Part shown: in pieces, positions 46,144 through 64,000 of the stretch
How positions within the stretch are numbered: the first letter of the stretch is position 1
Layout of the letters: every line of letters begins with the position of its first letter
From: Streptomyces sp. NBC_01476
GTDB lineage: Bacteria; Actinomycetota; Actinomycetes; Streptomycetales; Streptomycetaceae
Direction of reading: 5' to 3'
Length of the DNA stretch: 64,000 nt
Assembly (NCBI RefSeq): GCF_036227265.1
Contig: NZ_CP109446.1
Location: forward strand, 7,209,001-7,273,000
Position numbers and translations under genes: made by a program
The notes under the pieces: model-generated
What the model was told of the DNA's origin: nothing
Databases searched by the model: none
What the model saw: the letters and a program-made list of their open reading frames with translations, nothing else

Positions 46144-46527
46144 GTGGAAGTACGGGTGGAAGTTGCGGGTGAGCATGTCGCGGACGAGCTGCGGTCGTTG
46201 CGGGAGTGGCTTGTCGCGGAGGAATCACTGCGCGGACGGGTACGCCTGGTGGCCGTACCGTCCGGCGAGGGCACGCTCGGGACCGGGCTTGACGCCCTGG
46301 CGATCGCCCTCGGCAACGGCGGGGCCGCCACGGCCTTCGCGACGGTCGCGGTCACCTGGCTGAGGCGGCGGACGGGCCGGATCGAGGTGAAGTTCGTCAG
46401 GGCCGACGGTTCGACGGTGGAGATCAGCGCGGATCTGGTGAAGCCGCAGACGGCGCAGGAACTGCGGGAGACGGTCCGGGAGTTGGTGCGGGAACTCGGT
46501 CCCGTCGACGAAGGGACCGACGGCTGA
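46144..46527 (+). CDS. EACC1-like effector-associated constant component
   Basis: 127 residues. The pattern VRVEVAG...RSLREWLVAEESLRG, a hydrophobic glycine-rich helix (GTGLDALAIALGNGGAATAF), WLRRRTGRIEVKFVRADG and a C-terminal amphipathic helix matches EACC1, the small component defined computationally in actinobacterial NTP-dependent conflict systems with caspase or trypsin effectors. It probably bridges the membrane or a sensor to the effector. The stop overlaps the effector start (TGATG at 46525-46529), so the two are translated together. GTG 46144 is the start; 46142 is out of frame. Confidence 0.85.
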   Translation: MEVRVEVAGEHVADELRSLREWLVAEESLRGRVRLVAVPSGEGTLGTGLDALAIALGNGGAATAFATVAVTWLRRRTGRIEVKFVRADGSTVEISADLVKPQTAQELRETVRELVRELGPVDEGTDG

Positions 46528-49500: not shown

Positions 49501-51182
49501 TCGGCGCCGCGGCGACCGGTGCAGGCCGGGGCACCGCCAAGGTCACTCTGTGGGACATCGACGGTCACGGCCGGGCCGCCGGGAGCCCGGCTGCCACCGT
49601 CACGGCCGACTCCGTCGAGAGCCTGGCGTTCAACCCGCAGGGCACCCTGCTCGCGGCGGGCGGAGCGCAGGGGGCGATGGCGGTGTGGGACACCACCAGG
49701 ACCGGCCGGCCCACCGTCCGGCAGGTGCAGCAGTTCTCGGCGGACGGCGCGGGCTCCGTCCTGTCGATCTCCTTCGAACCGGACGGCAAGGTGTTCCTCG
49801 CCGCGGACACCACCGGGTCGGTCGAGCAGTGGGAGGAAGCGGGCGACGCCGGCCCCCCGGACATCCGGCGCATCGACGTCTTCACCAGTTTCCCCACCGC
49901 GCTGCCCGTCTACGCGGTCGCCTACAGCCCCGACGGCTCGACCTTCACCGGTGGCGGTGAGAAGGGCTCGGTGGGCCTGTGGAGTTCGGCGAGCGCGCCC
50001 GTCCTGCCGGGGTTCCTCGCTGCCGCCGGCTCGGACGTGCCGGGCAGCGGGTTCAGCGCCGACGGGCGGCTGCTCGCCGTCTCGGCGGGGTCCGATCCCC
50101 AGGGGAGGGTGCGGGTCTGGGACGTCACGGACCCCCATCGTCCGGCGAGCGCCCACACGTTCCCCCGGCAGTGGCGCAACGCCAACTTCATCGGTGACGG
50201 AAGAACGCTGATCACCCAGGACGGGAGCCGGACCAGGATCGCCCTGTGGGACATGCGCGACCCCCGCGGCTCCCGGCACCTGTCGGAACTCGCGGCGGCC
50301 GGCTCCGTGACCGTCTCCAACGACGGCCGGATGCTCGCGGTGGGCACCGCCGGCCGTCCGGCGGTGTCCGTCTTCGACATCAGCGACCCGAGCCGGCCCC
50401 GGCCGCACGGCGAGATCTCCGTACGGAGCGAGGACCAGAGCTCCGAGGTCCACGCACACTTCCTCAACGACACGACGATGCTGGTCTGGGACGACGCGGG
50501 GGCGAGCCTGTGGAGTGCCGGCGCCGTCGCCACGCCCCGGCGGCTGGACACCTTCCAACAGCCGGCGTACATCGGCGGCCTGGCGTACGACGACGGATCG
50601 CGTCTGCTGGCGATGTGGGACTCCGAAGGTCCGCTGACGATGTGGAACCTGAAGGATCCCCGGCACCCGAAGGGCATCGCCTCCGGCGGGATCTCGGCGA
50701 AGGTGCAGAGCGCGGGATTCGTCGGCGAGGACACGCTGGCGGTGGCGACCGCCAACGACTCCAGCATCACCTTGTGGGACGTCGGTGACTCCGCCGCACA
50801 CCCCCAGCGCGTCGGAGTGGTCACCGGCGACGGCAAGATGGCGGGTTTCTCGATCAGCCCCGACCTCAGGACGCTGGCCGGGCAGCCGGCCTTCGGCGGG
50901 CAGGCCCACCTGTGGGACGTCGGGAACCCGCGGCATCCGTCGGACGCGGGCACACTGCCGGACGCGTACGCGCAGGCGGGGGAGTTCAGCCCCGACGGCC
51001 GCACGCTCGCCATGACGAAAACCATCCTGCCCGGCGGTGGAAGCGGGATCGAGCTCACCGACTACAAGGCCGCGGACGCGTACCGCTATCTCTGCTCCCT
51101 CGGCCCGCACCCGATCAGCCGGGCCCGCTGGGAGCAGGTGGTGGGCCGGATCCACGCCTACCGGGAGCCGTGCGGCGACTGA
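46527..51182 (+). CDS. Caspase-like protease fused to nSTAND1 NTPase and WD40 propellers
   Basis: 1551 residues. (1) Caspase/C14-like domain, about 15-255: His96 in YYVGHG and Cys148 in LDCCFAG form the dyad. (2) nSTAND1 NTPase, about 274-740: CPYRGLRSFTADDAAYFFGR, Walker A GPSGAGKSS from residue 320, Walker B VVVDQFEELF with Asp437; a linker repeat RKDGTD interrupts it. (3) One hydrophobic helix (about 755-775) that could anchor it in the membrane. (4) About 14 WD40-type blades (about 830-1520) with recurring LWDV. Predicted to oligomerise on a trigger and activate proteolysis, killing or arresting the cell. Confidence 0.93.
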   Translation: MAPPGPPHRPTALSSTGSRALIVGSGRHIPGSLLPDVPAAGETVRELGRTLVERCGLRAEHLRTLTDPEDPRALGTALTEVAAEATDVLLLYYVGHGLVSPGNELYLATRATSDPVTGLTYNALSYQAVRDTLSECRARSVVVVLDCCFAGRARGAFGTAATHAFELASFGGTYVLTSASADEQALAPAGARYTAFTGELLALLHDGDRTGLPDLTVEDAYRHLRRVLPARGLPEPHRHLSDRAGELVLAGNPAAGPARVPDRPPGTDHEGPEPPCPYRGLRSFTADDAAYFFGREQLVGEVLRKMSEWSDNGGPVAVVGPSGAGKSSLLHAGLLPAIRRGELRVTGSETWPHLSLVPGEHPLATLAGRFTQDTGVPEEVLAARLREDPGHLSALVRQALTRKDAGTDARKDGTDTRKDGTDAGTGTADGRLLVVVDQFEELFTQCADEAERRAFVEALCSVGGPDGSRPAAAMVVIAVRADFYSDCLAYPQLAPTFREFQVPVVPMTPGELRDAIERPAAVAGYRLEEGLSGLVLRDLRIGADRPEPTESGFLPLLSYALEQTWVHRDGRDLLIQGYEASGGVWHAVTRQADLVHDGLTPGARKAARQLLLRMVHVSEDFEDTRRRVDLAELTAARPEAEAAHVAAALDALAGARLITVDDRTAQIAHEALLRSWPRLRAWIDEDRRGLLIHRQLTDAAREWHRTHDRTVLYGGPRLATARERFADAGHRAALTPAEKSFLARSVRGHRLRRASVVIGVGVLVAALLSGLIAVRQSRLAADRADTIASRQLALLADSLRDGDPATALGLSLAAYGISPTAEAGAGVLHSYVTAAPVTLTGPTDRVFNVAYSGDGRVLAASARDRTVRLWDVSDPRRPVARGVIRTDGTAAVAYRPGGRTLAVQTEHSLTLWDVTDPAGPVATAHRTSPAINPPHIAFSPDGSVLAVADAHGAVHLWDTVSAGRPAPLPDLTAGPADVRAVAFAPRGRTLAVGAAATGAGRGTAKVTLWDIDGHGRAAGSPAATVTADSVESLAFNPQGTLLAAGGAQGAMAVWDTTRTGRPTVRQVQQFSADGAGSVLSISFEPDGKVFLAADTTGSVEQWEEAGDAGPPDIRRIDVFTSFPTALPVYAVAYSPDGSTFTGGGEKGSVGLWSSASAPVLPGFLAAAGSDVPGSGFSADGRLLAVSAGSDPQGRVRVWDVTDPHRPASAHTFPRQWRNANFIGDGRTLITQDGSRTRIALWDMRDPRGSRHLSELAAAGSVTVSNDGRMLAVGTAGRPAVSVFDISDPSRPRPHGEISVRSEDQSSEVHAHFLNDTTMLVWDDAGASLWSAGAVATPRRLDTFQQPAYIGGLAYDDGSRLLAMWDSEGPLTMWNLKDPRHPKGIASGGISAKVQSAGFVGEDTLAVATANDSSITLWDVGDSAAHPQRVGVVTGDGKMAGFSISPDLRTLAGQPAFGGQAHLWDVGNPRHPSDAGTLPDAYAQAGEFSPDGRTLAMTKTILPGGGSGIELTDYKAADAYRYLCSLGPHPISRARWEQVVGRIHAYREPCGD
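47749..47800 (+). repeat. 21-bp direct repeat in the NTPase domain linker
   Basis: Two nearly identical 21-bp copies (CCCGGAAAGACGGGACCGAC core), preceded by a diverged third, encode repeated RKDGTD. They sit between Walker A and Walker B in a presumed surface loop. Strain-level copy-number variation is plausible. Confidence 0.75.
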
Positions 51183-51484: not shown

Positions 51485-53461
51485 ATGTCCATGAACGGTG
51501 ACCACGCGTCACAAGAGCCGACCGGGCAGAGTCGGCGAGGTTTCCTGCGGAACACGGCGCTGGCCGGTGCGGGAGCGGCAGCGGCGGGAGTCGGCGCATC
51601 CGCGCTCGGCGGGACGCCCGCGTTCGCCGCGGAGACCGCCGCCACCGGCGCCGCGGACGCCGCCAAGAGCGGCGGAACCGGCAGGTGGAGCCCGGATCCC
51701 ACCGCCCTCCAGTTCACCCTCGCGGTCATGCCGGACACCCAGTTCCTCTACTGGGGCAGCCAGGACAGCGTCAACCGGACGCCGCAGGAGGAGTCGTTCC
51801 GCTACATCATCGACAACAGCGGGGGCGGCACCGACAACATCGTGTTCATGGCGCACCTCGGTGACCTGACGCAGGACGCCGACGCGTCGTCGTTCCAGCA
51901 GGTCGACAAGGCGTTCGCGCTGCTGGACTCGCACGGTGCCGCGTACAGCGTGCTGGCCGGCAACCACGACGTGACCGGCGACGACAGTCGCGGCGACACC
52001 CCGTATCTGCAGACCATGGGCCCGCAGCGGTTCAAGCACGCGAAGACGTTCGCCGGAGCGGACCCCACCGGCTACAACACCGCGCACATCTTCCAGGCCG
52101 CCGGCCGCTCATGGCTGGTGCTGGCCCTGGACTGGCGGACCACCGACCAGGGCTTCGCATGGGCCGACCAGGTCATCAAGTCCCACCCGAAGATGCCGGT
52201 GATCCTCACTTCGCACGACATCGTCGCCTCGCCGTACGATGACAACGTTTTCCCGTACGAGTCCGGCGACCCGGAGGACAACGCCGTGCTCTCCGGTTAC
52301 GGGCAGACGGTCTGGGACAAACTGATCAACGACAACGACCAGGTCTTCCTGACCCTCAACGGCCACTACTGGCCGCCCGGGCGTACGACCAAGAAGAACG
52401 CGGCCGGCAACGACGTGCACCTGCACATCACGAACTACCAGAACCGGTACTTCGGCGGTGGCGGCATGATCCGGCTCTACCACTTCGACCTGGTCCGCAA
52501 CACCATCGACGTCGAGACCATCAACCCGTGGATCCTGGCCCAGGAGCCCGAGTCCCGCAACGAACTGGCCGCGGAACACGCCCGGATCACCGGCCCGGTC
52601 GACAACTTCTCGATCCCGATCGACTTCGAGCAGCGCTTCTCCGGCTTCATCCCGGTTCCGGTCAGGCCCGCCCGGCCGGCCGGCAAGGAACTGGTGAAGG
52701 GCACGCTGGCGTACTGGCGCTTCGACGGTCAGGGCGCGCCCGGCACCTCGCTCAGCGCGGGCCAGACGATCCGCGACCTGTCCGGCAAGGGCAACGACCT
52801 GACGGTGGTGACCGTGCCGGGCACCGCCGCCGACGCGCTGACCTGGTCCGACGACCACCACCCCGACCAGCCCGGGCACGCCAGCCTGAAGTTCGCCGGC
52901 GGCAGGAACCCGGTCCACGGCACGTATCTGACCACCAAGACGAAGGCCCCGCTGAACACCGAGACGTTCAGGAGCGGGTACACGATCGAGACGTTCGTGA
53001 TGCTGCCGCTGGACTGGGACGCCGGCAACAACGGCAACGCGTCGATTCTCAGCCGGCGGGGCTCGGCCGGGGCAGCGGGCAAGCACGGCAAGAACACCGA
53101 CGTGAACGAGCCGCTGGCCCAGTTCGCCGTCACGAACAACGGCCGCGAGGCGCAGTTCAACCACTACCCGCTGAACGACACCTACCCGACGACCAACTGG
53201 GGTCACGGCATGGTGGAGCTCAAGTGGTGGCACCTGGCGGTGGTCAACGACGGCCGCTACACGAAGCTGTACGTCGAAGGCGCACCGGTCGTCGACAACC
53301 CGAACCGGCTCTCGGTCGGCCTCACTTCGCTGGGGCTGCCGTGGCTGGTGGGCGGCCACGAGTACGCGGGCGCCATCGATGTCATCTTCCACGGCAACGT
53401 CGGTGACATCCGCATCGTGAACCGTCCGCTGTCCAAGGGCGAGTTCCTGACCGCCAAGTAA
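51485..53461 (+). CDS. Tat-exported metallophosphoesterase with LamG (concanavalin-like) domain
   Basis: 658 residues. The Tat signal (SRRGFLRNTALAGAGAAAAG ending near AFAA) precedes a calcineurin-like phosphoesterase with metal motifs MPDTQF, LGDLTQD, GNHD, LTSHD and NGHYWPPG. From about residue 405 a LamG/concanavalin A-like lectin domain follows (GTLAYWRFDGQG, YTIETFVMLPLDWDAGNN, HLAVVNDGRYTKLYVEG). It would act outside the membrane on phosphoesters, perhaps while bound to polysaccharide. ATG 51485 or 51491 may be the start (GGGAAG upstream). Confidence 0.93.
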   Translation: MSMNGDHASQEPTGQSRRGFLRNTALAGAGAAAAGVGASALGGTPAFAAETAATGAADAAKSGGTGRWSPDPTALQFTLAVMPDTQFLYWGSQDSVNRTPQEESFRYIIDNSGGGTDNIVFMAHLGDLTQDADASSFQQVDKAFALLDSHGAAYSVLAGNHDVTGDDSRGDTPYLQTMGPQRFKHAKTFAGADPTGYNTAHIFQAAGRSWLVLALDWRTTDQGFAWADQVIKSHPKMPVILTSHDIVASPYDDNVFPYESGDPEDNAVLSGYGQTVWDKLINDNDQVFLTLNGHYWPPGRTTKKNAAGNDVHLHITNYQNRYFGGGGMIRLYHFDLVRNTIDVETINPWILAQEPESRNELAAEHARITGPVDNFSIPIDFEQRFSGFIPVPVRPARPAGKELVKGTLAYWRFDGQGAPGTSLSAGQTIRDLSGKGNDLTVVTVPGTAADALTWSDDHHPDQPGHASLKFAGGRNPVHGTYLTTKTKAPLNTETFRSGYTIETFVMLPLDWDAGNNGNASILSRRGSAGAAGKHGKNTDVNEPLAQFAVTNNGREAQFNHYPLNDTYPTTNWGHGMVELKWWHLAVVNDGRYTKLYVEGAPVVDNPNRLSVGLTSLGLPWLVGGHEYAGAIDVIFHGNVGDIRIVNRPLSKGEFLTAK

Positions 53462-53563: not shown

Positions 53564-53581
53564 TCTCAGAAGAAGCTGAGA
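53564..53581. promoter_or_regulatory. TCTCAG/CTGAGA inverted repeat before DUF2231 gene
   Basis: TCTCAG and CTGAGA are perfectly inverted with a 6-nt spacer. Related CTCAG/TGAG elements cluster between the response-regulator and ferric-reductase genes (56435-56523), suggesting a shared regulator. Confidence 0.5.
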
Positions 53582-53674
53582 AGTTGGCGTGGAAGGCTGC
53601 GATCTCCTTGCGAGCGGCTACGGGCGACTGTCCGCGGGCACGCTGCGCACGCCTTCTTCCCTGGAGCAACGCCC

Positions 53675-54205
53675 ATGAGCCTTACGCACATCGACGGTCT
53701 GCCGGCGCACATCCTCTTCGTGCACTTCGTGGTGGTGCTGGTGCCGCTGACGGCCCTGGCCGCGGTGGTCTGCGCGGTCCAGCCCCGGTACGCCCGGCGC
53801 CTGGGGCTGGTGCTTCCACTGCTGGGGCTGGTGACACTGGGCCTGGTCCCCGTCACCACCCACGCCGGGGAGTGGCTGGAGTCCCGGGTCGGCGACGACC
53901 CGCTGGTGCGCAAGCACACGGAGCTGGGCGACGGTCTGCTGCCCTGGGCGATCGGTCTGTTCCTGATGACGCTCGCGGTCTGGTGGCTGGGCCGTCGTCC
54001 GGTGCGGTCCGCGACGGCGGCAGACGGATCCCCGGCCGGCCGCGGCTGGTGGAGCTCGCCGACCGTGCTGCGCACGACGGCCGTGGTCGTGGCCGTCGTC
54101 GTCTCCGCCGGCGCCGTGGTGGATGTCTACCGCATCGGTGAGTCCGGCGCGAAGGCGGCCTGGCACGGCACCTACGACAAGTCCGCGAGCGGCGGGCGCC
54201 GCTGA
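53675..54205 (+). CDS. DUF2231-like membrane protein
   Basis: 176 residues from ATG 53675 (GGAG upstream). It begins LTHIDGLPAHILFVHFVVVL, typical of DUF2231 proteins, which have four transmembrane helices and conserved His residues (AHxLxVH; THAGEWLESRV). Some relatives may carry haem or take part in membrane redox reactions; this is not shown. It is convergent with the histidine kinase gene and shares a CTCAG-type motif with the redox operon, so it may belong to the same regulon. Confidence 0.85.
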   Translation: MSLTHIDGLPAHILFVHFVVVLVPLTALAAVVCAVQPRYARRLGLVLPLLGLVTLGLVPVTTHAGEWLESRVGDDPLVRKHTELGDGLLPWAIGLFLMTLAVWWLGRRPVRSATAADGSPAGRGWWSSPTVLRTTAVVVAVVVSAGAVVDVYRIGESGAKAAWHGTYDKSASGGRR

Positions 54206-54236
54206 CCGCGTCCGCCGGCGCGGACATGACGGTACG

Positions 54237-55679
54237 TCAGGTGGCGCGCGGCAGGGTGACGGTGAACACGGTGCCCCCAGGGCGGCTGCGCACCTCGGCG
54301 GTGCCGCCGTGGGCGGTGGCCACCGCGGTGACGATCGCGAGGCCCAGGCCGGCGCCGTGTTTCCCGGGCCCCGGCCGGGTGTGGTCGGCGCGGGCGAAGC
54401 GCTCGAAGACGGTGGGGAGGATGTCCTTTGGGATGCCGGGGCCGTCATCCCCGACCACGAGCCGGACGACTGCCCCGTCCTGCCGGAGCCGTACGGTGAC
54501 ACGGGTGCCGGGCGGGGTGTGCACGCGGGCGTTCGCCAGCAGGTTCCCGGTGATCTGCTGCAGTCGCAGCGGGTCCCCCGTCATCGTGATCGGGGCTTCC
54601 GGCAGATCGAGGACCCAGCGGTGGCCGGGACCCGCGGCGCGTGCGTCGTCGACCGCGTCCAGGACCAGCCGGGTGAGGTCGACCGGCTCGCGGGCCAGCG
54701 GCCGGCCGGCGTCGAGGCGGGCGAGCAGCAGCAGGTCGTCGACCATGCCGCCCATCCGCGCCGACTCGGCCGCGATCCGCTCCAGCGCGCGCGACACCCC
54801 GGACGGCACCGGGTCCGGGTGGAGCCTGGCCAGTTCGGCGTGGCCGCGGATGGACGCGACGGGGGTGCGCAGTTCGTGGCTGGCGTCGGCGGCGAAGCGG
54901 CGCAGCCGTTCCTCGCTGGAGTGCCGCTTGCCCAGCGCGCTCTCCACGTGGCCCAGCATCCGGTTGAGGGCGATGCCGACCTGGCCGACCTCGGTCCGCG
55001 GGTCGGTGTCCGGGACCCTGTCGGGCAGTGCCACCTCGCCGCTGGCCAGCGGGAGCGCGGTCACCGAGGCCGCGGTGGCCGCGACCCGGCGCAGCGGCCG
55101 GAGCGACCACCTCACCCAGAACGCCCCCGCCGCCCCCGCGACCAGCAGCGCGCCGCCGAAGACGGCGCCCTCCACGGCGATCAGCCGGGTCACCGCGCCC
55201 TCCACGCCGCTGAGCGGCAGCCCGGTCACCAGCACGTCCCCGTCGTCCCCGGCGACCGCCTTCACCCGGTAGTCGTCCAGGGCCGACAGCTCCAGTTTGT
55301 GGCTGTGCCCGTCGACGGGGACCGCGGCGATGGCCGCCTTGTCGGCGGCCGTCAGCGTCACGGAGGTGTCCGCTCCCGACCGCACGACGCCGGCCGCCGT
55401 GACCTCCCCCCGCAGCAGCCGGGCGCCGAACGTGCCGGGTACCTGGCGGCGGGTGTCCACATGGTCGTTGTCCGCGTCGGGTTCCCCGGGCCCGCGGTGT
55501 TCCAGGCTGGCCGGGAAGGTGCCGCCGGCCTGGGTGAGCTGCTGGTCCAGCCGCTCGGTGAGGAAGGAGCGCAGCGTGATGACGGCCGCGATGCCCACCG
55601 CGGCGCAGCTCAGCGCGAGCAGCACCACCAGGCCGCAGGTGAGCCGGGCCCGCAGCGTGTGCGGCAGCAGCCGCCTCAC
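54237..55679 (-). CDS. Sensor histidine kinase
   Basis: 480 residues from GTG 55679, overlapping the response-regulator stop (GTGA). TM1 (LTCGLVVLLALSCAAVGIAA), an extracytoplasmic sensor region of ~120 residues, TM2 (AVEGAVFGGALLVAGAAGAF), a HAMP linker, H-box ASHELRTPVASIRGH, N-box NLLANARVHTP, and ATP-binding GDDGPGIP and GAGLGLAI. The OmpR/EnvZ-type kinase senses something outside the membrane, plausibly redox or envelope state given the divergent electron-transfer operon. Confidence 0.96.
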   Translation of the reverse strand: MRRLLPHTLRARLTCGLVVLLALSCAAVGIAAVITLRSFLTERLDQQLTQAGGTFPASLEHRGPGEPDADNDHVDTRRQVPGTFGARLLRGEVTAAGVVRSGADTSVTLTAADKAAIAAVPVDGHSHKLELSALDDYRVKAVAGDDGDVLVTGLPLSGVEGAVTRLIAVEGAVFGGALLVAGAAGAFWVRWSLRPLRRVAATAASVTALPLASGEVALPDRVPDTDPRTEVGQVGIALNRMLGHVESALGKRHSSEERLRRFAADASHELRTPVASIRGHAELARLHPDPVPSGVSRALERIAAESARMGGMVDDLLLLARLDAGRPLAREPVDLTRLVLDAVDDARAAGPGHRWVLDLPEAPITMTGDPLRLQQITGNLLANARVHTPPGTRVTVRLRQDGAVVRLVVGDDGPGIPKDILPTVFERFARADHTRPGPGKHGAGLGLAIVTAVATAHGGTAEVRSRPGGTVFTVTLPRAT

Positions 55680-56419
55680 CGCGGCACGGCCTTCAGTACG
55701 TAGCCGGCCCCCCGCACGGTGTGGATCATCGGCTCCCGGCCGGCGTCGATCTTCCGGCGCAGATAGCTGATGTAGAGCTCCACCACATGGGCCTGGCCGC
55801 CGAAGTCGTAGGACCACACCTGCTCCAGGATCTGCGCCTTGCTCAGCACCCGGCGCGGGTTGCGCATGAGGTACCGGAGGAGTTCGAACTCCGTCGGTGA
55901 CAGGTCGATCGCCTCCCCGCCGCGGCTGACCTCCCGCGCGTCCTCGTCGACCGTGAGATCACCGACCACGAGCAGCGCCGTGTCGCCCCGCGCCCGTGTC
56001 ATCCCGGCCCGGCGCAGCAGGCCGCGCAGCCGGGCGAGCACCTCCTCCAGGCTGAACGGCTTGGTGACGTAGTCGTCCCCGCCGGCCGTGATGCCCGCGA
56101 TCCGGTCCTCCACCGAGTCCCGTGCGGTGAGGAAGAGCACGCACACATCGGGCCGGGCCGCGCGCAGGCCGCGCAGCGCCGCCAGCCCGTTACCGTCGGG
56201 CAGCATGATGTCGAGGACCACCGCGTCCGGCTCGAAGTCCCGCGCCTGGGCGAGCGCGGAGGAGACATCGCCCGCGGTGCGCACCTGCCAGCCCTCGTAG
56301 CGCAGCACCCCGGCGAGCACCTCCGTCAGATCGGGCTCGTCGTCGACCACGAGGACCCGGACCGGGGAGCCGTCCGGCCGGGTCAGGGGCGCGGGCTGAG
56401 CGCGCGGTGCGGTGTCCAT
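55676..56419 (-). CDS. OmpR-family response regulator
   Basis: 247 residues from ATG 56419 (GGAG upstream). Receiver domain: acidic pair VVDDEPD, phosphoacceptor Asp70 in VVLDIMLPDG, switch Thr in FLTARD, Lys in VTKPFS. The C-terminal winged HTH (LSPTEFELLRYLMRNPRRVL; AHVVELYISYLRRKID; HTVRGAGYVLKAV) is of the OmpR/PhoB type. It is cotranscribed with the kinase and divergent from the ferric-reductase operon. Confidence 0.96.
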   Translation of the reverse strand: MDTAPRAQPAPLTRPDGSPVRVLVVDDEPDLTEVLAGVLRYEGWQVRTAGDVSSALAQARDFEPDAVVLDIMLPDGNGLAALRGLRAARPDVCVLFLTARDSVEDRIAGITAGGDDYVTKPFSLEEVLARLRGLLRRAGMTRARGDTALLVVGDLTVDEDAREVSRGGEAIDLSPTEFELLRYLMRNPRRVLSKAQILEQVWSYDFGGQAHVVELYISYLRRKIDAGREPMIHTVRGAGYVLKAVPR

Positions 56420-56434
56420 GGTCACTCCAGCATC

Positions 56435-56523
56435 TCTCAGCCACGGGGTGGCGCGGCGCTGAGGTTCCTCTGAATCGGCTGTGAGCCTTCCGCGGAACCA
56501 CCGACTCAGAGCTGGTTGAGAGG
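56435..56523. promoter_or_regulatory. Cluster of CTCAG/CTGAG elements in divergent promoter
   Basis: Within the 149-bp gap between response-regulator and ferric-reductase genes: TCTCAG (56435), CTGAGG (56459), CTCTGA (56468), and CTCAGAGCTGGTTGAGAGG (56505-56523). GAGGTTCC is also repeated (56461 and 56520). Multiple spaced half-sites fit an OmpR-type regulator controlling both directions. Confidence 0.5.
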
Positions 56524-56568
56524 TTCCACCCGCACAGTGGCCGTGCAGGACGAAGGAAAGGATGTCCG

Positions 56569-57933
56569 ATGACCACCACATACGGCCCGCGCCAGGCACG
56601 GCACGCGGTGGTACCCACCGGAGCGCGCTCCCCGGCCGCACTGGTGCTCTTTGTCTGCTGGGCAGGGGCGGCCGTGGTCCTGGCGCTGTGGTGGCAGGAC
56701 ACCGGCGCCGTGGTCGGCACCGCGGACTGGCTCATCGGCGCCGGCCGGATCGCCGGCCTGCTCAGCGGCTACGGCTGCGCGCTGCTGGTCGGCCTGATGG
56801 CGCGGATCCCGGTCCTGGAACGGGGGGTGGGCAGTGACCGGGTGGCCCGCTGGCACGCCGCACTCGGCCGCTACACGGTGTGCCTGCTGATCGCGCACGT
56901 CACGCTGATCCTGTGGGGTTACGCGGTGCAGGCCCGTACCGGCGTGGCCGGCGAAGCCTCGACCGTCGTCCTGACCTACCCCGAGATGCTCAAGGGCACG
57001 ATCGGCGGGCTGCTGCTGCTCGCCGTCGGAGCCGTCTCCGCGCGGGCGGTACGCCGCAAGGTCCGCTACGAGACCTGGTACTACCTGCACCTGCTCACCT
57101 ACCTGGCGGTGTTCCTCGCCTTCTGGCACCAGCTCGCCCTCGGCGCGGACTTCGCCGCCCACCCACTGGCACGCGGCTTCTGGTACGCGCTCTACGGGGC
57201 GGCGGCGGCAGCGGTGCTGTGGTACCGGGTCACGGCGCCGCTGCGGCTGAACCTGCGGCACCGCTTCCGGGTGGCGCAGGTGGTCCAGGAGACGCCCGAG
57301 GTGGTGTCGGTGATCGTGCGCGGTGAGCGACTGCCGGAACTGGCGGCCCGCTCCGGCCAGTTCCTGCGGTGGCGCTTCCTGGCCCCCGGGCTGTGGTGGA
57401 CGGCGAGCCCGTACTCGCTGTCCACCGCGCCGCGGCCCGACCTGCTGCGCATCACCGTCAAGGCGGTGGGCGGCCACAGCGCGGCGCTGGCCCGGCTGCG
57501 GCCCGGCACCCGGATCTGGGCCGAGGGACCGTACGGCGCCCTGACCGCCGACCGCCGGACCCGCCAGAAGGTGCTGCTGCTCGCGGGCGGGGTCGGTGTG
57601 ACGCCGTTGCGCGCCCTGTTCGAGTCCCTGCCGGCGCAGCCGGGCGACCTCACGATGATCTACCGGGCCCGCACCCCGGACGACCTGGCGCTGCGCGGCG
57701 AACTGGAGTCGATAGCCCGCTCCCGCGGTGCCCGCCTCCACTACCTGCTCAACCAGGCCGACGGCCGCGGCCCACGGCTCACCGCGGACCTCCTGCGCGC
57801 CGCCGTACCGGACGTCGCCCGGCACGACGTCTACCTGTGCGGACCGCCCGGCATGGCACGGGCGTCCTACGAGGCGCTGCGCTCCGCGGGCGTGCCGGGC
57901 CGCCACATCCACCACGAGTCGTTCGAACTGTGA
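56569..57933 (+). CDS. Ferric reductase-like transmembrane flavocytochrome with NAD(P)H:flavin oxidoreductase domain
   Basis: 454 residues. Six transmembrane helices with paired haem-ligand histidines (RWHAALGRYTVCLLIAHVTL; WYYLHLLTYLAVFLAFWHQL) form the b-type cytochrome. The cytoplasmic C-terminal half is an FNR-type domain: FAD motif SPYSLSTAP, NAD(P) motif AGGVGVTPLRAL, and DVYLCGPPGM. It should pass electrons from NAD(P)H across the membrane to the adjacent FMN-binding protein. First gene of a three-gene operon. Confidence 0.95.
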   Translation: MTTTYGPRQARHAVVPTGARSPAALVLFVCWAGAAVVLALWWQDTGAVVGTADWLIGAGRIAGLLSGYGCALLVGLMARIPVLERGVGSDRVARWHAALGRYTVCLLIAHVTLILWGYAVQARTGVAGEASTVVLTYPEMLKGTIGGLLLLAVGAVSARAVRRKVRYETWYYLHLLTYLAVFLAFWHQLALGADFAAHPLARGFWYALYGAAAAAVLWYRVTAPLRLNLRHRFRVAQVVQETPEVVSVIVRGERLPELAARSGQFLRWRFLAPGLWWTASPYSLSTAPRPDLLRITVKAVGGHSAALARLRPGTRIWAEGPYGALTADRRTRQKVLLLAGGVGVTPLRALFESLPAQPGDLTMIYRARTPDDLALRGELESIARSRGARLHYLLNQADGRGPRLTADLLRAAVPDVARHDVYLCGPPGMARASYEALRSAGVPGRHIHHESFEL

Positions 57934-57940
57934 GACGCCC

Positions 57941-58423
57941 GTGAACAGTCTTTCCGGCCGCCCGCTGCGCCGAGTCCTGCTCAGCACCCTGACGACCGTC
58001 ACCGGCGTGCTGCTCCTGCTCAGCCTCAAGCCGCACACGACGGGAGGCGCGGACAGCGCCGCCGCCCGCCCGGCGGCCCCCCCGCCCGCCCCGTCCGCCT
58101 CCGCGACCTCCCCGGCGACCTCCCCGGCCGCCGGCGGCGCGACGGGGACCCGCACCGTGGAGGGCGACACCGTCCAGACCCGCTACGGACCCGTACGGCT
58201 CCGCGTCACCCTGCAGGGCAGCAGGATCACCGCCGTGTCCGCCGTCCAGGTACCGGACGGCAGCCCCCGCGACCAGGAGATCACCGGCTTCGCCGTGCCC
58301 CAGCTCACGCAGGAGGCGCTGTCCGCGCAGAGCGCGCGGATCGACACCGTCTCCGGGGCGACCTACACCAGCGAGGGCTACATCCAGTCCCTGCAGAGCG
58401 CCCTGGACAAGGCCGGTGGCTGA
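57941..58423 (+). CDS. Extracytoplasmic FMN-binding domain protein
   Basis: 160 residues from GTG 57941. An N-terminal membrane anchor (VLLSTLTTVTGVLLLLSL) is followed by an Ala/Pro/Ser-rich linker and one FMN-bind domain (TRYGPVRLRVTLQGSRITAV). The flavinylation motif DTVSGATYTSEGY provides Thr141 for covalent FMN attachment. It lies 7 bp downstream of the ferric-reductase gene and overlaps the apbE gene by 8 bp: electron donor, carrier and maturase in one operon. Confidence 0.94.
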   Translation: MNSLSGRPLRRVLLSTLTTVTGVLLLLSLKPHTTGGADSAAARPAAPPPAPSASATSPATSPAAGGATGTRTVEGDTVQTRYGPVRLRVTLQGSRITAVSAVQVPDGSPRDQEITGFAVPQLTQEALSAQSARIDTVSGATYTSEGYIQSLQSALDKAGG

Positions 58424-59177
58424 CACCGGCCCCCGGCTGCGCCGGGTCGAGCACACCATGGGCACGGTCTTCTCCTTCGATGTGCGCGGTGCCGCCCCGC
58501 GCACCGCCGCCGCCCTGGACGCCGCGGCCGCCTGGCTGCACCACGTGGACGAGGTCTTCTCGACCTACCGGCCCGGGAGCCAGATCAGCCGGCTGGCGGC
58601 CGGGACCCTGGCGCTGTCCGCGTGCTCACCGGAGGTGGGGGAGGTACTCCGCCTCTGCGAAGCCGCCGAGCGCCGCAGCGGCGGCTGGTTCAGCGCCGGG
58701 TACGCGGGCGGCTTCGACCCCACCGGGCTGGTCAAGGGGTGGGCGGTGCAGCGGGCGGCCGCGATGGTCTCCGCGGCCGGTCCCGAGGCGGTGTGCGTCA
58801 ACGGCGGCGGCGACATCCAGGTGCACGGCGGGCCGTGGCGCATCGGCGTGAGCGATCCGCTGCGCCGGGGCGGACTGGTGACCGTGGTGCACGCCGACGG
58901 AGAACTGGCCGTCGCCACCTCGGGTCCCGCCGAACGCGGCTGCCACATCCTCGACCCCCGCACCGGCCGGCCTCCGGCCGCCGCACTGGCCTCCCTCACC
59001 GTGATCTGCCGCGGCCTGACCGACGCCGACACGTACGCCACCGCCGGCTACGCCATGGGCGACCGGGCCCGCACCTGGCTGGAGTCCCTGCCCGGCACGC
59101 GTTCCCTCGCCATCGCGGCCGACGGCACCTCGTGGAGCACCGGCGGGCTCCGGCAGGGGCAGGCAGCGGAGCGGTGA
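58416..59177 (+). CDS. apbE: FAD:protein FMN transferase (ApbE)
   Basis: 253 residues from GTG 58416. ApbE motifs: HTMGTVFSFDV, FDPTGLVKGWAVQRA, NGGGDIQVHG, TSGPAERGCHILDPRTGRPP and DADTYATAGYAMG (metal site). It attaches FMN from FAD to Thr in exported proteins. Many ApbEs are lipoproteins, but this one has no signal peptide. The substrate is clearly the FMN-binding protein encoded directly upstream. Confidence 0.95.
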   Translation: MADTGPRLRRVEHTMGTVFSFDVRGAAPRTAAALDAAAAWLHHVDEVFSTYRPGSQISRLAAGTLALSACSPEVGEVLRLCEAAERRSGGWFSAGYAGGFDPTGLVKGWAVQRAAAMVSAAGPEAVCVNGGGDIQVHGGPWRIGVSDPLRRGGLVTVVHADGELAVATSGPAERGCHILDPRTGRPPAAALASLTVICRGLTDADTYATAGYAMGDRARTWLESLPGTRSLAIAADGTSWSTGGLRQGQAAER

Positions 59178-59216: not shown

Positions 59217-59720
59217 CTAGGGCTGGTGGCTGTCGTCGGGTGTGGGGCGGGGCGCGTTCCGCAGGGATGACGGTGCGAGGGGGGACTGGACCGTGGAGGT
59301 CGGCGGCGGCGTGCGCGTCGGGGTCGGGGTGGCGACGGCCGGGCCGGCCGGGGCCCCAGGGATCTGGGACGGGACTGCCCGGGTGGGCCGGGGACGCTGG
59401 GGCGGCCCGGAGGACGTCGGAGTGGCCGAAGGTGCCGAAGGGGCCGTTACGGGCGGCGGGGCGAGCGGGGCGGCCGGAGTCGCCGGGGCCGCGGGATCCT
59501 GAGGGGACGTCAGGCGGAGCGGCAGCGCGATCAGGGCGGCGACGGCACACGTCAGGCCGACCCCGGCCGCGGTACGCAGCAGCCGGCGCCGGGCGGATCT
59601 GCGGCGGATCGACCGGTACGTGCCGGGGGGCGGGCCGAAGTACTCGGGGGTGGGCCGCAGGATGACGGCCAGCGGGTCGTCGGATGTGAAGTCCGGACCG
59701 TCTTCAGCGTGTGTGATCAA
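59217..59720 (-). CDS. Membrane-anchored Pro-rich protein cotranscribed with an ECF sigma gene
   Basis: 167 residues: ~50 cytoplasmic residues (TSDDPLAVILRPTPEYFGPP), an Arg-rich stop (RSIRRRSARRRLLR), one transmembrane helix (TAAGVGLTCAVAALIALPLR) and a Pro/Ala/Ser/Thr-rich exterior. It overlaps the sigma gene by 17 bp. Position and topology suggest an anti-sigma-like or signalling partner, although no ZAS/anti-sigma motif is visible. Confidence 0.8.
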   Translation of the reverse strand: MITHAEDGPDFTSDDPLAVILRPTPEYFGPPPGTYRSIRRRSARRRLLRTAAGVGLTCAVAALIALPLRLTSPQDPAAPATPAAPLAPPPVTAPSAPSATPTSSGPPQRPRPTRAVPSQIPGAPAGPAVATPTPTRTPPPTSTVQSPLAPSSLRNAPRPTPDDSHQP

Positions 59721-60192
59721 GACTTCTCCTCAGATGGGCGCGGAGCAGCTCGCGGGCGGTGTGCAGGTCCGACATGACGGTGCCTTCCTTGCGCCCGGTC
59801 AGCAGGGACACCTCGCGGATCGGCATGTCGGCGTAGTAGTGCAGCAGGATCGGGACGCGCAGCCGTTCCGGCAGCGACTGCACGAGCATGCGGACCGACG
59901 GGTCGGGCTGCTCGGTCTGCGGGCGGACGGCGGTTTCCGCGGTGACCCGGTGGACCGTTCTCCGTTCGCGCTCCAGCTTGCGCCAGTGGTCCCGGACGAG
60001 GTTGGCCGCGGTGACGTAGAGGAATCCCTGGGGCTCCGCCACGGCTGTCCAGCGGGCCCACAGCCGGGTGAACGCCTCCGAGGCGATCTCGTGGGCCGTC
60101 TCGTCGTCGACGAGACGGCGGCACCAGCCGGCGAGGCGCGGATAGACGGCGGCGAAGAGCTCGGAGGCCGCCTTCTCACGGGACCGTTTCAA
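59704..60192 (-). CDS. ECF-type RNA polymerase sigma factor
   Basis: 162 residues. Region 2 (ELFAAVYPRLAGWCRRLVDD, EIASEAFTRLWARW, FLYVTAANLVRDHWRKLERE) and region 4 (SLPERLRVPILLHYYADMPI, VSLLTGRKEGTVMSDLHTAR) are complete; no extra C-terminal domain. Controlled, in all likelihood, by the membrane protein it overlaps. Its targets may include the adjacent sortase operon, but no matching promoter could be defined by eye. Confidence 0.93.
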   Translation of the reverse strand: MKRSREKAASELFAAVYPRLAGWCRRLVDDETAHEIASEAFTRLWARWTAVAEPQGFLYVTAANLVRDHWRKLERERRTVHRVTAETAVRPQTEQPDPSVRMLVQSLPERLRVPILLHYYADMPIREVSLLTGRKEGTVMSDLHTARELLRAHLRRSLDHTR

Positions 60193-60276: not shown

Positions 60277-60927
60277 TCAGGGGCTCGCCGGCGTCAGCGC
60301 GGCGAAGACGATCACGTTGTCGAGGTAGCCGTCACCGGTACGGGGGCCGCCGCAGGTGATGAGCCGCAGCTCCGGACGGTCCACCTCCCCGTAGACCGCG
60401 TCCGTCGGGAAGGCGGCCTTGGCGACCGTCCGAACCGTGGTGACGGTGAACACCGCCGCCGTGCCGTTCGCCAGGCGGGCCACGATCCGGTCGCCCCGGC
60501 GCAGCTCCGCCAGGTGACGGAAGACCCCGTCCCCGTAGGCGCCGACCGTGACATGGGCGAGGATCACCGAAGGACCGGTCTGGCCGGGTGTCGGCGAGTA
60601 CCGGTACCAGCCCGCCCGGTCGTGTGCGGTGACCGGGGGGACCTGCACGCTGCCGTCCGGGGCCAGCCCCAGTCGTATGACCGGGGTGTCGACCCCGATG
60701 GCCGGGATCCGCAGGCCGACCGGGACGGAACGCGCCAGCGGACGTGCCGTGTTCGCGGACGGCCGCGAGGACGGGGTCGTCGCGGTCCGGGCGGGGGCGG
60801 TCGTGGTCCGGCCGCTCCGGCCCGCCGGGTCCGCCCCGTCGGCCCGGCCCGCCTGGTGGGCGCCGCAGCTCACGAGCAGCAAGGCCACCGCCACGGCGGC
60901 CGGCGCGCGCCTGACGGACGGGATCAT
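60277..60927 (-). CDS. Class F-like sortase
   Basis: 216 residues. An N-terminal hydrophobic segment with a lipobox-like LVSC, a Thr/Ala-rich linker, then a sortase domain: GLRIPAIGVDTPVIRLGLAP, VILAHVTVG (catalytic His) and LITCGGPRTGDGYLDNV (catalytic Cys and Arg). Class F sortases are typical of actinobacteria and poorly characterised. It overlaps by 4 bp (ATGA) the gene of a protein with a sorting-signal-like C-terminus, its probable substrate. Confidence 0.92.
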   Translation of the reverse strand: MIPSVRRAPAAVAVALLLVSCGAHQAGRADGADPAGRSGRTTTAPARTATTPSSRPSANTARPLARSVPVGLRIPAIGVDTPVIRLGLAPDGSVQVPPVTAHDRAGWYRYSPTPGQTGPSVILAHVTVGAYGDGVFRHLAELRRGDRIVARLANGTAAVFTVTTVRTVAKAAFPTDAVYGEVDRPELRLITCGGPRTGDGYLDNVIVFAALTPASP

Positions 60928-61277
60928 GCCCCGGCCGACCGCCGGCGACGTACGAGCAGGACCGCCGCGCCCCCGGCGGCCACGAGGGCGGCGGCGCCCC
61001 CGCCGATCAGTCCGCCGTCGGCTCCGGACCGCGTCGCCGTGGGCGCCACACCGGTGTCGGGCGCTCCCTTCGGCACGACGGCGACCCCACCGGGAACCGC
61101 GGTCGGTGCCGGCGCCTGGGCCGGTGCACGCGTCGGCGCCGGGGTCGGGGTCGCCAGCCGCGTCGGGGCGGCGCTCGGCACCGGGGTCGGGGTCGTCCCG
61201 TCGGCGAACGCGGGCACGGCGCCCGCGAGCACGGCGGTGCACGCGAGTGCCGTGACGCTGAGGATGGTTCGGCGCAT
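60924..61277 (-). CDS. Probable sortase substrate (cell-wall-anchored, PDTG-type sorting signal)
   Basis: 117 residues: signal peptide (SVTALACTAVLAGAVPAFA), a Pro/Thr/Ala-rich stalk, the motif APDTG at residues 72-76, a hydrophobic helix (LIGGGAAALVAAGGAAVLLV) and a charged tail RRRRS. This is a classical LPXTG-like tripartite sorting signal. The short stalk carries no other domain. Translational coupling with the sortase makes a dedicated pair likely. Confidence 0.88.
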   Translation of the reverse strand: MRRTILSVTALACTAVLAGAVPAFADGTTPTPVPSAAPTRLATPTPAPTRAPAQAPAPTAVPGGVAVVPKGAPDTGVAPTATRSGADGGLIGGGAAALVAAGGAAVLLVRRRRSAGA

Positions 61278-61461
61278 GTTTCGCTCTCTCTCGTCGACCC
61301 GCCCGCGCTCTTGCCCGGCGGGCTGGGTTGTGGATCGACAGGAGAGACGAGGGAGCGGCAGAACGAATTGTAAAGAGCAAGCAAAGCCCCCGAAGCCGCG
61401 GTGCGCTGCCCGGAGCGCGGGAACGAAGCGTCCGCCACCGCCCCACTCCCCGGCAGCTCCC

Positions 61462-61500
61462 CGGTGGCACGCCCGCGCACGGTGCGCGGGCGTGCCACCG
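61462..61500. repeat. Perfect 18-bp inverted repeat
   Basis: CGGTGGCACGCCCGCGCA pairs perfectly with its complement (61483-61500) around a 3-nt loop. Very stable; it could act as terminator or cruciform. It is also the first unit of the repeat array that follows. Confidence 0.8.
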
Positions 61501-61705
61501 AGATGGTGAACGGCGTCCGCAGGCACGGTGCGCGGGCGTCCCGCGGCGGGGTGCGCGGGCGTCCACCTGCACGGTGCACAGCGTCCGCTGGCGTGGTGCG
61601 CGGGCGCCCACCGGCACGGAGCACGGCGTCCAACGGCGCGACGCAGAGTCCACCGGCATGGCGCGCGGGTGCTCACTGGCGCGGGACACGGCGCCACCGG
61701 TCCTC
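61479..61705. repeat. Degenerate tandem array of ~20-24-bp units
   Basis: Eight to ten imperfect units built on GGCACGGTGCGCGGGCGTCC (variants GGCGTGGTGCGCGGGCGCCC, GGCATGGCGCGCGGGTGC). Units abut without conserved spacers, so it is not CRISPR. Confidence 0.6.
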
Positions 61706-61843
61706 CGCGCGGGCGCCCCGGCGCGGCCGGCGGTTGGCGCCGCGCTGAGGACGGTCGGTATGCGCCTGCGGGCTCTACGCACGCGATCATGGTGGGCGAC
61801 AGGCCGGTCGCCGCGACCGAGCGGCTGAGCGTAAATAGGAGAT

Positions 61844-64000
61844 ATGCCGAATTTCCCCCGCCGACCTGGACCGTCGCCTCCGCCGGAGGCCCCGGCCCCG
61901 GCCCCGGTCACGCGCCGGCGCGGTCGGCCGCGGCGGCGGGGTGAGGGCCTTCGGGCGCTGCTGAGCCCCCGCAGCGTGGTCGGGAAGCTGTTCATCCTCC
62001 AGCTGGTCATCGTCCTGCTGCTGGCGGCCGGCGCCCTCGGCATCCTCGTCCTCACCGTCGAGCACGCGAACACCCGCGACGCGGAACACCGCTCGCTCGC
62101 CGTCGCCCAGGGGTTCGCGCACGCCCCGGGGATCGCCGCGGCGATGAAGTCCCGCGACCCCACGGCGGCACTGCAGCCCCTGGCCCAGCAGGCGGCCGGC
62201 GAGGCGGGCGTGGACTACATCGGCGTCGTCAACCGGGAGGGCATCCGCTACACCGCGTCCACTCCGGCGCTCATCGGCAAACGCAGCCCGGTGAACATGG
62301 CACCGCTGCTGGCCGGAGAGACCGTTCAGAGCAAGGATGTCGGCGACCTCGGCCCCCGGGTGCGGGCGGACGTCCCGATCCGGGACACGGACGGCAGGAT
62401 CCTCGGCGCGGTGGGTGCAGGAGTCCGGATCAGCAGCATCACCGCGTCGGCCAACCGGCAGATGCCGTTGCTGCTGCTCGTGACCGGCGCCGCGGTGGTG
62501 CTCTCCACCGGCGGCACGGCGCTGCTGAGCCGGCGGCTGCTCCGGCAGACCCACGGCATGGGGCCGGCCGAGATCACCCGCATGTACGAGCACCACGACG
62601 CCGTACTGCACGCCGCACGCGAAGGCGTGCTCATCCTCGACCGGAACCGCTCGCTCGTCCTGGCCAACGACGAGGCCCGGCGGCTGCTGGACCTGCCGCC
62701 GGAGGTGGAGGGCCGCGACATCCACGACCTGGGCCTCCCGCCGGACATCGCCGAGCTGCTGGCCTCCGGCCGGGAGGCCGACGACGAGGTGCTGCCGGTC
62801 GGAAACCGGGTGCTCGCGGTGAACCAGCGGCTCATCGAACGGTACGGCGGCCCGCGCGGCTGCGTGGTGACCCTGCGTGACTCCACCGAACTCCAGCGGA
62901 TCTCCGGCAAGGCCCAGGCGGCCCAGGGGCGCCTCAAGGTGCTCTACGACGCGAGCCTCGGCGTCGGCACCACGCTCGACGTGACCCGCACCGCGGAAGA
63001 GATCGCCGAAGCGGCCGTGCCGAGCTTCGCCGAGTTCGCCACCGTCGACCTGGTCGAGGGCATCCTGCGCGGCGAGGAGCCGGTGGGCACCGAGCGGGTG
63101 CTGCGCCGCGTGGCCATCTCCGGCGTCCAGCCCGACCCGCCGCTGTTCGGCACCGGCGACACGGTGCACCTGCACGCGCAGGGCCCGCAGATGAGGAGCC
63201 TGGCCGCCGGCCTCGCCGTGTGGGAGAGCGATTTGAGCGACGCCGCCGGCTGGTCGGAGCAGGACCCCGAGCGGGCCGGGCGGGTGGTCGACTACGGCAT
63301 TCACTCCCTGATCAGCGCCCCGCTGCAGGCCAGGGGAGTGGTCCTGGGAGTGGCGACCTTCTGGCGCTCGCAGACTGCGGAGCCGTTCGAGGAGGAAGAC
63401 CTGGCGCTCGCCGAGGAACTCGCCAGCCGGGCCGCGCTGAGCATCGACAACGCCCGCCGCTACACCCGCGAGCACGCGATGGCCGTCACCTTGCAGCGCA
63501 GCCTGCTGCCGGGCAGCCTGCCCGAGCAGAACGCGCTGGAGGTCGCCTACCGCTACCTCCCCGCGCGGGAGAGCGTCGGCGGGGACTGGTTCGACGTGAT
63601 CCCGCTGCCGGGCGCGCGGGTGGCGCTGGTGGTCGGCGATGTCGTCGGGCACGGTCTGCACGCGGCGGCCACCATGGGCCGGCTGCGTACCGCCGTGCAC
63701 AACTTCTCCTCCATGGACCTGCCGCCGGACGAGATCCTGGGCCGCCTCGACGAGCTGGCGGACCGTATCGACCGCAGCGAGGACACCGAGGGCTACCCGG
63801 ACGCGGTGATCGGCGCGACCTGCCTGTACGCGATCTACGATCCGGTGGGCCGGCGCTGCAGCATCGCGCGGGCCGGCCACCTGCCGCCGGTGCTCGTACA
63901 CCCCGACGGCGAGGTGGAGTTCCTCGAACTGGAGGCAGGGCCGCCGCTGGGGGCCGGCGGCTCCGTGTACGTGACGACCGAGGTGGACGTGCCCGAGGGC
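61844..64000 (+). CDS. SpoIIE-family PP2C phosphatase with extracytoplasmic sensor, PAS and GAF domains (3' end outside window)
   Basis: 719 codons are visible and the frame is open at the window edge. After a basic N-terminus: TM1 (LFILQLVIVLLLAAGALGIL), a Cache-like sensor domain (VDYIGVVNREGIRYTASTPA), TM2 (MPLLLLVTGAAVVLSTGGTA), PAS (EGVLILDRNRSLVLANDEAR), GAF (VLYDASLGVGTTLDVTRTAE) and a PP2C/SpoIIE domain (SVGGDWFDVIPL, VVGDVVGHGLHAA, ARAGHLPPVLVHP). A C-terminal anti-sigma-like ATPase domain is common in this architecture and may lie beyond the edge. AGGAG sits only 2 nt before ATG 61844; GTG 61976 is a weaker alternative. Confidence 0.93.
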   Translation, partial: MPNFPRRPGPSPPPEAPAPAPVTRRRGRPRRRGEGLRALLSPRSVVGKLFILQLVIVLLLAAGALGILVLTVEHANTRDAEHRSLAVAQGFAHAPGIAAAMKSRDPTAALQPLAQQAAGEAGVDYIGVVNREGIRYTASTPALIGKRSPVNMAPLLAGETVQSKDVGDLGPRVRADVPIRDTDGRILGAVGAGVRISSITASANRQMPLLLLVTGAAVVLSTGGTALLSRRLLRQTHGMGPAEITRMYEHHDAVLHAAREGVLILDRNRSLVLANDEARRLLDLPPEVEGRDIHDLGLPPDIAELLASGREADDEVLPVGNRVLAVNQRLIERYGGPRGCVVTLRDSTELQRISGKAQAAQGRLKVLYDASLGVGTTLDVTRTAEEIAEAAVPSFAEFATVDLVEGILRGEEPVGTERVLRRVAISGVQPDPPLFGTGDTVHLHAQGPQMRSLAAGLAVWESDLSDAAGWSEQDPERAGRVVDYGIHSLISAPLQARGVVLGVATFWRSQTAEPFEEEDLALAEELASRAALSIDNARRYTREHAMAVTLQRSLLPGSLPEQNALEVAYRYLPARESVGGDWFDVIPLPGARVALVVGDVVGHGLHAAATMGRLRTAVHNFSSMDLPPDEILGRLDELADRIDRSEDTEGYPDAVIGATCLYAIYDPVGRRCSIARAGHLPPVLVHPDGEVEFLELEAGPPLGAGGSVYVTTEVDVPEG

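Follow-up and report, generated by a model that had tools for sequence, protein, structure and literature searches.

We analyzed a 64,000-nucleotide stretch of DNA from Streptomyces sp. NBC_01476 (hereafter, the window; positions 7,209,001–7,273,000 of a genome consisting of a single contig of 8,397,038 bp, host genus probably Actinacidiphila), and investigated a gene cluster spanning window positions 53565–59177. A gene for a DUF2231 membrane protein (plus strand) is followed by sensor kinase and response regulator genes (both minus strand), and then by a rightward set of genes encoding a ferric-reductase-type flavocytochrome, a flavin mononucleotide (FMN) carrier with an FMN_bind domain, and the flavin transferase ApbE. 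The cluster is likely to encode a two-component-controlled transmembrane electron-export system, of which the DUF2231 protein would be a part. Its features are as follows.

53565–53585 (repeat at 53565–53582), plus strand: operator before the DUF2231 gene, CTCAGAAGAAGCTGAGAAGTT, 89 bases upstream of the ATG
53675–54205, plus strand: DUF2231 membrane protein, 176 residues (PF09990 36.6 bits, above the Pfam gathering cut-off of 26.4)
54237–55679, minus strand: sensor histidine kinase (Pfam HAMP, HisKA and HATPase_c)
55676–56419, minus strand: OmpR/PhoB-type response regulator (Pfam Response_reg and Trans_reg_C)
56458–56474, minus strand: probable autoregulatory repeat, TTCAGA-N5-CTCAGC, weaker than the two operators, half-sites 11 bp apart, facing the regulator gene
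56505–56525 (repeat at 56505–56522), plus strand: operator before the operon, CTCAGAGCTGGTTGAGAGGTT, 43 bases upstream of the reductase ATG
56569–57933, plus strand: NADPH oxidase (NOX)/ferric-reductase-type flavocytochrome (Ferric_reduct 60.7 bits, NAD_binding_1 46 bits, FAD_binding_8 20.5 bits)
57941–58423, plus strand: N-terminally anchored FMN_bind carrier (FMN_bind 35.8 bits), Thr141 in DTVSGAT, twin arginine ahead of the anchor
58416–59177, plus strand: ApbE flavin transferase without export signal (ApbE 138 bits)

The gap between the reductase and FMN_bind genes is 7 bases and the FMN_bind and apbE genes overlap by 8 bases; this short spacing makes a single operon of the three genes plausible. 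The original prediction had described such an operon, with a ferric-reductase-like donor, an FMN carrier with its motif at Thr141 and ApbE, together with a divergent kinase/regulator pair, and both descriptions held: the Pfam domains of all these products were found, with the SGAT sequence ending at residue 141, and the operon falls into a published class of cluster. The regulator was nearest to the PhoB and MtrA models of NCBIfam, and each of the 25 models listed (of 102) remained below its cut-off. The window's carrier is the only FMN_bind match in the whole genome.

We then turned to the CTCAG/CTGAG elements that the same prediction had noted before the operon and before the DUF2231 gene. 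These elements are real and, rather than loose words, form paired same-direction half-sites, i.e., a direct repeat with an 11-bp period (YTSAGAR-N4-YTSAGAR); direct repeats of this period are expected for an OmpR-type regulator. The pattern YTSAGARNNNNYTSAGAR had two exact matches in the 8.4-Mb genome, one before the operon and one before the DUF2231 gene, and its reversed control had none. As YTSAGARNNNNYTSAGAR was written from these two window sites, the comparison across relatives supplies the real, independent test.

A motif-first scan found exact TCAGARNNNNYTSAGARGTT in 67 of 297 family genomes, and the reversed control in 2. Target labels were assigned by hand to the resulting 84 exact sites, placing 48 in the regulator–reductase gap, 15 before DUF2231, 2 before DoxX and 19 elsewhere. 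Within the genus (n = 33), the reductase operon accounted for 20 sites and the position before DUF2231 for 10, with 3 elsewhere; outside it (n = 51), the corresponding numbers were 28, 5 and 18, with the two DoxX sites among these 18. One site (L186) is located inside the regulator–reductase gap, yet faces the regulator. In most genus genomes with both components, the DUF2231 gene and the operon are widely separated or on different contigs, and the DUF2231 gene often retains the site.

We also performed the reverse, gene-first scan, in which 79 DUF2231 relatives were collected by protein alone, with the motif unused (best 80 of 409). A matrix built from 21 promoters of the operon in other Actinacidiphila genomes scored at least 10 bits, the threshold, upstream of 60 of the 79 relatives, compared with 11 of 1425 random segments. 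Counting the plain repeat with at most one mismatch, and with operon and divergent classes assigned by hand, we observed it upstream of 64/70 separately placed DUF2231 genes (background, 4/1401 random segments) and of 3/4 DUF2231 genes divergent from the regulator. Where DUF2231 directly follows apbE, the gene has no site of its own (0/5), and the promoters of the operons that contain it all carry one (5/5, 13.3 to 17.2 bits). This alternation between operon membership and an own operator copy was significant (Fisher p = 2.7e-5, uncorrected for kinship). The five operons are Streptomyces loci (L251, L263, L304, L311 and L320) with the row reductase–FMN_bind–ApbE–DUF2231, divergent from the regulator and, where the contig reaches, from the kinase. 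Twelve of the 79 loci lie on contigs already used in the genus scan, and excluding them leaves, by subtraction, 54/58 in the separate class; L262, L301 and L310 are also among the motif-first sites. A chance origin of the elements was set aside, as the reversed controls and the random-segment background were far lower. Together, the comparative promoters and the five loci with DUF2231 in fourth place strongly support the regulon including DUF2231 that the original prediction had suggested.

The distribution of the regulator is consistent with this reading. An operon-type regulator (75–100% identity) was found in 25 of 35 genus genomes, and the exact operator in 22 of these 25 and in none of the 10 genomes without it (Fisher p = 1.6e-6, uncorrected for kinship). 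Three genomes have the regulator and no exact operator: in G010 and G026 the operon site deviates by one mismatch, and G006 has lost FMN_bind. In G008, G009 and G025, a reductase/FMN_bind/ApbE operon is present, and both this regulator and the exact operator are missing. Furthermore, in four genomes of the family (G039, G058, G191 and G272) the sole exact site is located at DUF2231, and each of them has an operon-type regulator divergent from a reductase gene.

Several other contexts of the operator and of its target genes were recorded. Many Streptomycetaceae operons (L190–L213) are enlarged to reductase–FMN_bind–reductase–FMN_bind–FMN_bind–ApbE behind one operator, and in L127 (3810–6607) the exact operator precedes a second Ferric_reduct membrane protein together with a ferredoxin/pyridine-nucleotide oxidoreductase. 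The two DoxX sites (L168 and L169; PF07681, a small membrane family) belong to two genomes of other genera. In L180, L182, L164 and L177 the operator lies ahead of secreted-looking proteins, including a Peptidase_A4 in L180, and may serve another regulon in these genera. An operator-bearing DUF2231 gene in L129 (also L247) adjoins kinase, FMN_bind and ApbE fragments, which we read as a remnant of an old linkage; the intact operon of that genome is on another contig. Finally, in L184 (5343–5846) an intact operator precedes a DUF2231 frame that is interrupted by a stop codon, either a pseudogene or a sequence error.

A number of observations weigh against a dedicated regulon joining DUF2231 to the operon. 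The operator is not exclusive to these targets, with 19 of the 84 exact sites elsewhere (3 in the genus, 14 in genera g3 and g14, and 2 in g9); when one mismatch is tolerated, one site in an unrelated place appears in each of two genomes without the operon-type regulator (G017 and G025). The operon sites behind the matrix were collected using a pattern informed by both window sites, 6 of the 70 separate DUF2231 genes are without the repeat, and the relatives in all counts are not independent, kinship being uncorrected. Three loci (L131, L132 and L134) have a different regulator/kinase pair beside DUF2231, which could also bind there. Moreover, DUF2231 matches occur in 17/35 genus genomes and FMN_bind matches in 26/35, i.e., the operon can exist without this DUF2231.

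This last point bears on the possibility that DUF2231 stands outside the electron path, as an independent membrane protein that responds to the same signal, to which we give somewhat less than an even chance. Several genus genomes hold the operon without a DUF2231 match, and structure comparison yielded no lead: the AlphaFold2 model of DUF2231 (four long helices, mean predicted local distance difference test score of 80.4) gave no Foldseek match at E ≤ 0.001, and VIA-align 2 returned only generic four-helix bundles (Z up to 12.3, at the level of the tool's own warning). The lack of a matching family in this comparison is uninformative, and we draw no conclusion on function from it. Nevertheless, the alternation between operon membership and an own operator suggests a tight functional link. 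His12 of DUF2231 is invariant among 45/45 aligned members of the wider family, and His81 is present in 13/13 close relatives and in 24/45 sequences of the wide alignment, whose quality around this residue is poor. L184 was excluded from DUF2231 alignment A2 for its in-frame stop. Heme binding by DUF2231 would be a guess. The family was matched in 56 of 119 sampled genomes of the phylum; a literature search for DUF2231 with Streptomyces returned nothing, and the sole mention of DUF2231 in the literature searched was unrelated by its title.

We characterized the electron-transfer core of the operon similarly. The reductase carries the heme-ligand pattern H96/H110 and H174/H187, with spacings of 14 and 13; histidines so spaced are a mark of two stacked hemes in NOX/FRE proteins. 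All four histidines were kept in 30/30 sequences, consistent at the sequence level with two heme sites; the alignment contained only sequences passing three motifs (30 rows including the window, out of 83 loci). The C-terminal region forms a flavin adenine dinucleotide (FAD)/NAD(P)H module (PF00175, 46 bits against a cut-off of 22), in which FAD_binding_8 scored slightly below its cut-off of 22. The best Protein Data Bank (PDB) match of the reductase was 8qt6, which we take to be SpNOX. The carrier bears the flavinylation motif Dxx[S/T]GA[T/S] as DTVSGAT, and the threonine of its SGAT, residue 141, is the predicted covalent FMN site. A hydrophobic N-terminal anchor, read in the window protein and measured in its relatives, marks the carrier as the presumably exported component of the cluster. 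Its FMN_bind domain matched PDB 8p2a (E = 1.3e-25), probably a domain of SaFMN3 of Streptomyces azureus; the SaFMN3 report describes covalent FMN upon co-expression with ApbE (PMC10339131).

The original prediction had pointed out that ApbE lacks an export signal and that flavinylation of an exported domain would therefore need explanation. Indeed, hydropathy analysis and inspection of the N-termini revealed no hydrophobic N-terminus, signal peptide or lipobox in the window ApbE, and the genus relatives were alike. Among 81 ApbE hits from 153 loci, nearly all actinobacterial, a hydrophobic N-terminus was present in one (L403); this set was seeded with the window ApbE and includes a few fragments, so that the count describes that ApbE group only, in which the signal-less state appears to be general. 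Mis-annotation of the ApbE start was set aside, as the relatives have no hydrophobic segment upstream. On the side of the carrier, a twin arginine (RPLRRVLLS) stands ahead of the anchor in the window, and a twin arginine was observed ahead of the anchor in 71/88 FMN_bind proteins with a detectable anchor, compared with 33/175 other single-anchor open reading frames. These counts are rough: the carrier count excludes the window protein and 35 of the 123 FMN_bind hits (fusions longer than 420 residues, no motif or no clear anchor), the control frames include false genes, and a few twin arginines lie upstream of the likely true start. The pair is conserved even where the residues further upstream are lysines.

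The conserved twin-arginine anchor fits a route that would add to the electron-export system proposed here, in which cytosolic ApbE flavinylates the folded FMN_bind domain and the twin-arginine translocation (Tat) system then exports it. The evidence for it, the near absence of hydrophobic N-termini in ApbE and the enrichment of the twin arginine, is suggestive only. The arginines may merely follow the positive-inside rule, and MRK or KR forms occur beside a signal-less ApbE in L124, L125, L178, L390, L392 and L393, such that we put this route forward tentatively, as possible but not the probable outcome. Among the matches listed in a literature search on Tat with flavinylation, nothing concerned this system.

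Returning to the regulon, we considered whether a different OmpR-type regulator is the main protein binding the shared operator, in which case DUF2231 and the operon would carry a common motif with no dedicated circuit. A regulator paralogue of 72–74% identity was found in 35/35 genus genomes, and in L131, L132 and L134 the operator lies between DUF2231 and the adjacent, distinct regulator/kinase pair. The universal paralogue was set aside as the regulator; being present in all 35 genomes, it leaves the pattern of operator presence unexplained, the exact operator being absent from every genome without the operon-type regulator. In addition, the 10.5 kb around this genome's paralogue (L335) contains no operator-like site of at least 8 bits, and the operon-type regulator adjoins the operator in nearly every operon locus. 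We judge binding mainly by another regulator to be quite improbable. That the reductase is a free NOX making superoxide, with the flavoprotein as an accessory, is suggested by the best PDB match and is very improbable given that its gene consistently shares an operon with the FMN_bind gene and, at most loci, with apbE.

The core operon is of a known kind, the MsrQ-like flavinylation cluster. According to Meheust et al. 2021 (PMC8238504), such clusters contain a PF01794 protein, which often has PF00175 at its C-terminus and is typically accompanied by apbE and a gene for FMN binding; they are widely conserved among Actinobacteria, with 1797 clusters, of which 1437 have the NAD-binding domain. 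The window shares with them the PF01794 membrane protein beside apbE and the FMN-binding gene, PF00175, two heme sites (by sequence) and a presumably exported component, and differs in the divergent kinase/regulator pair, the operator, DUF2231 as a regulon member and the signal-less ApbE. The main text of PMC8238504 does not mention DUF2231, and "two-component" occurs in it once, in a reference title. What seems to be new, judged from these comparisons, is the conserved dedicated regulon that brings in DUF2231. SaFMN3 (PMC10339131) likewise has a homologous FMN_bind domain and a predicted N-terminal membrane sequence, but three FMN sites compared with one in the window protein. SpNOX, a bacterial NADPH oxidase (PMC5676040), likewise fuses a ferric-reductase-type heme domain to an FAD/NAD(P)H domain, but hands electrons directly to oxygen, whereas the window has a flavoprotein carrier gene alongside. 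A Klebsiella ApbE (PMC12052999) also lacks a signal peptide, but its target is the soluble fumarate reductase, whereas that of the window is an anchored, presumably exported domain. Literature searches on a streptomycete ApbE/FMN-binding/two-component system, and on an OmpR-family regulator with CTCAG repeats, gave nothing on this system among the matches listed.

Based on these results, we propose the following mechanism for the two-component-controlled electron-export system. The kinase would phosphorylate the OmpR-type regulator, which would bind the tandem YTSAGAR half-sites 11 bp apart and, presumably as an activator rather than a repressor, switch on the reductase–FMN_bind–apbE operon together with DUF2231; it would probably activate its own transcription as well. 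In the reductase, electrons taken from NAD(P)H would pass to FAD, then over two b hemes, and so reach the membrane's outer face. ApbE would place FMN on Thr141 of the anchored FMN_bind protein, which would accept these electrons. The small membrane protein DUF2231, one histidine of which is invariant, would work with this chain, its simplest role being that of a membrane acceptor or relay. With the genes, domains, heme histidines, flavinylation motif and operator, and its sharing by DUF2231, established as features of the sequences, DUF2231 is very probably a functional partner of the electron chain, because the operator is shared across relatives. A far-reaching version, in which one two-component regulon of Streptomycetaceae would combine cytosolic flavinylation by a signal-less ApbE and folded Tat export (no flavin export being needed) with DUF2231 as a hitherto overlooked redox carrier of the membrane, perhaps containing heme, and dedicated partner or acceptor, is in our estimate unlikely.

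Three neighboring regions of the window were also inspected. Upstream, positions 51485–53461 encode a protein that looks secreted; it has RRGFLRN as a twin-arginine start, contains a Laminin_G_3 domain and by eye resembles a calcineurin-type phosphoesterase. Positions 46527–51182 encode a 1551-residue protein in which, by eye, an N-terminus like that of caspases is combined with a nucleotide-binding core and with WD40-like repeats. Downstream, on the minus strand, a Sigma-70-family (extracytoplasmic-function-like) factor and an open reading frame with, by eye, a sortase-like domain lie side by side (59704–60192 and 60277–62163).

Taken together, the alternation between operon membership and an own operator links the streptomycete members of the domain-of-unknown-function family DUF2231 to flavin-based electron export firmly enough for a direct bench test. 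The operator offers a ready regulon for this group. Furthermore, the signal-less ApbE poses a concrete question, namely how a flavoprotein on the outside is supplied with its flavin.

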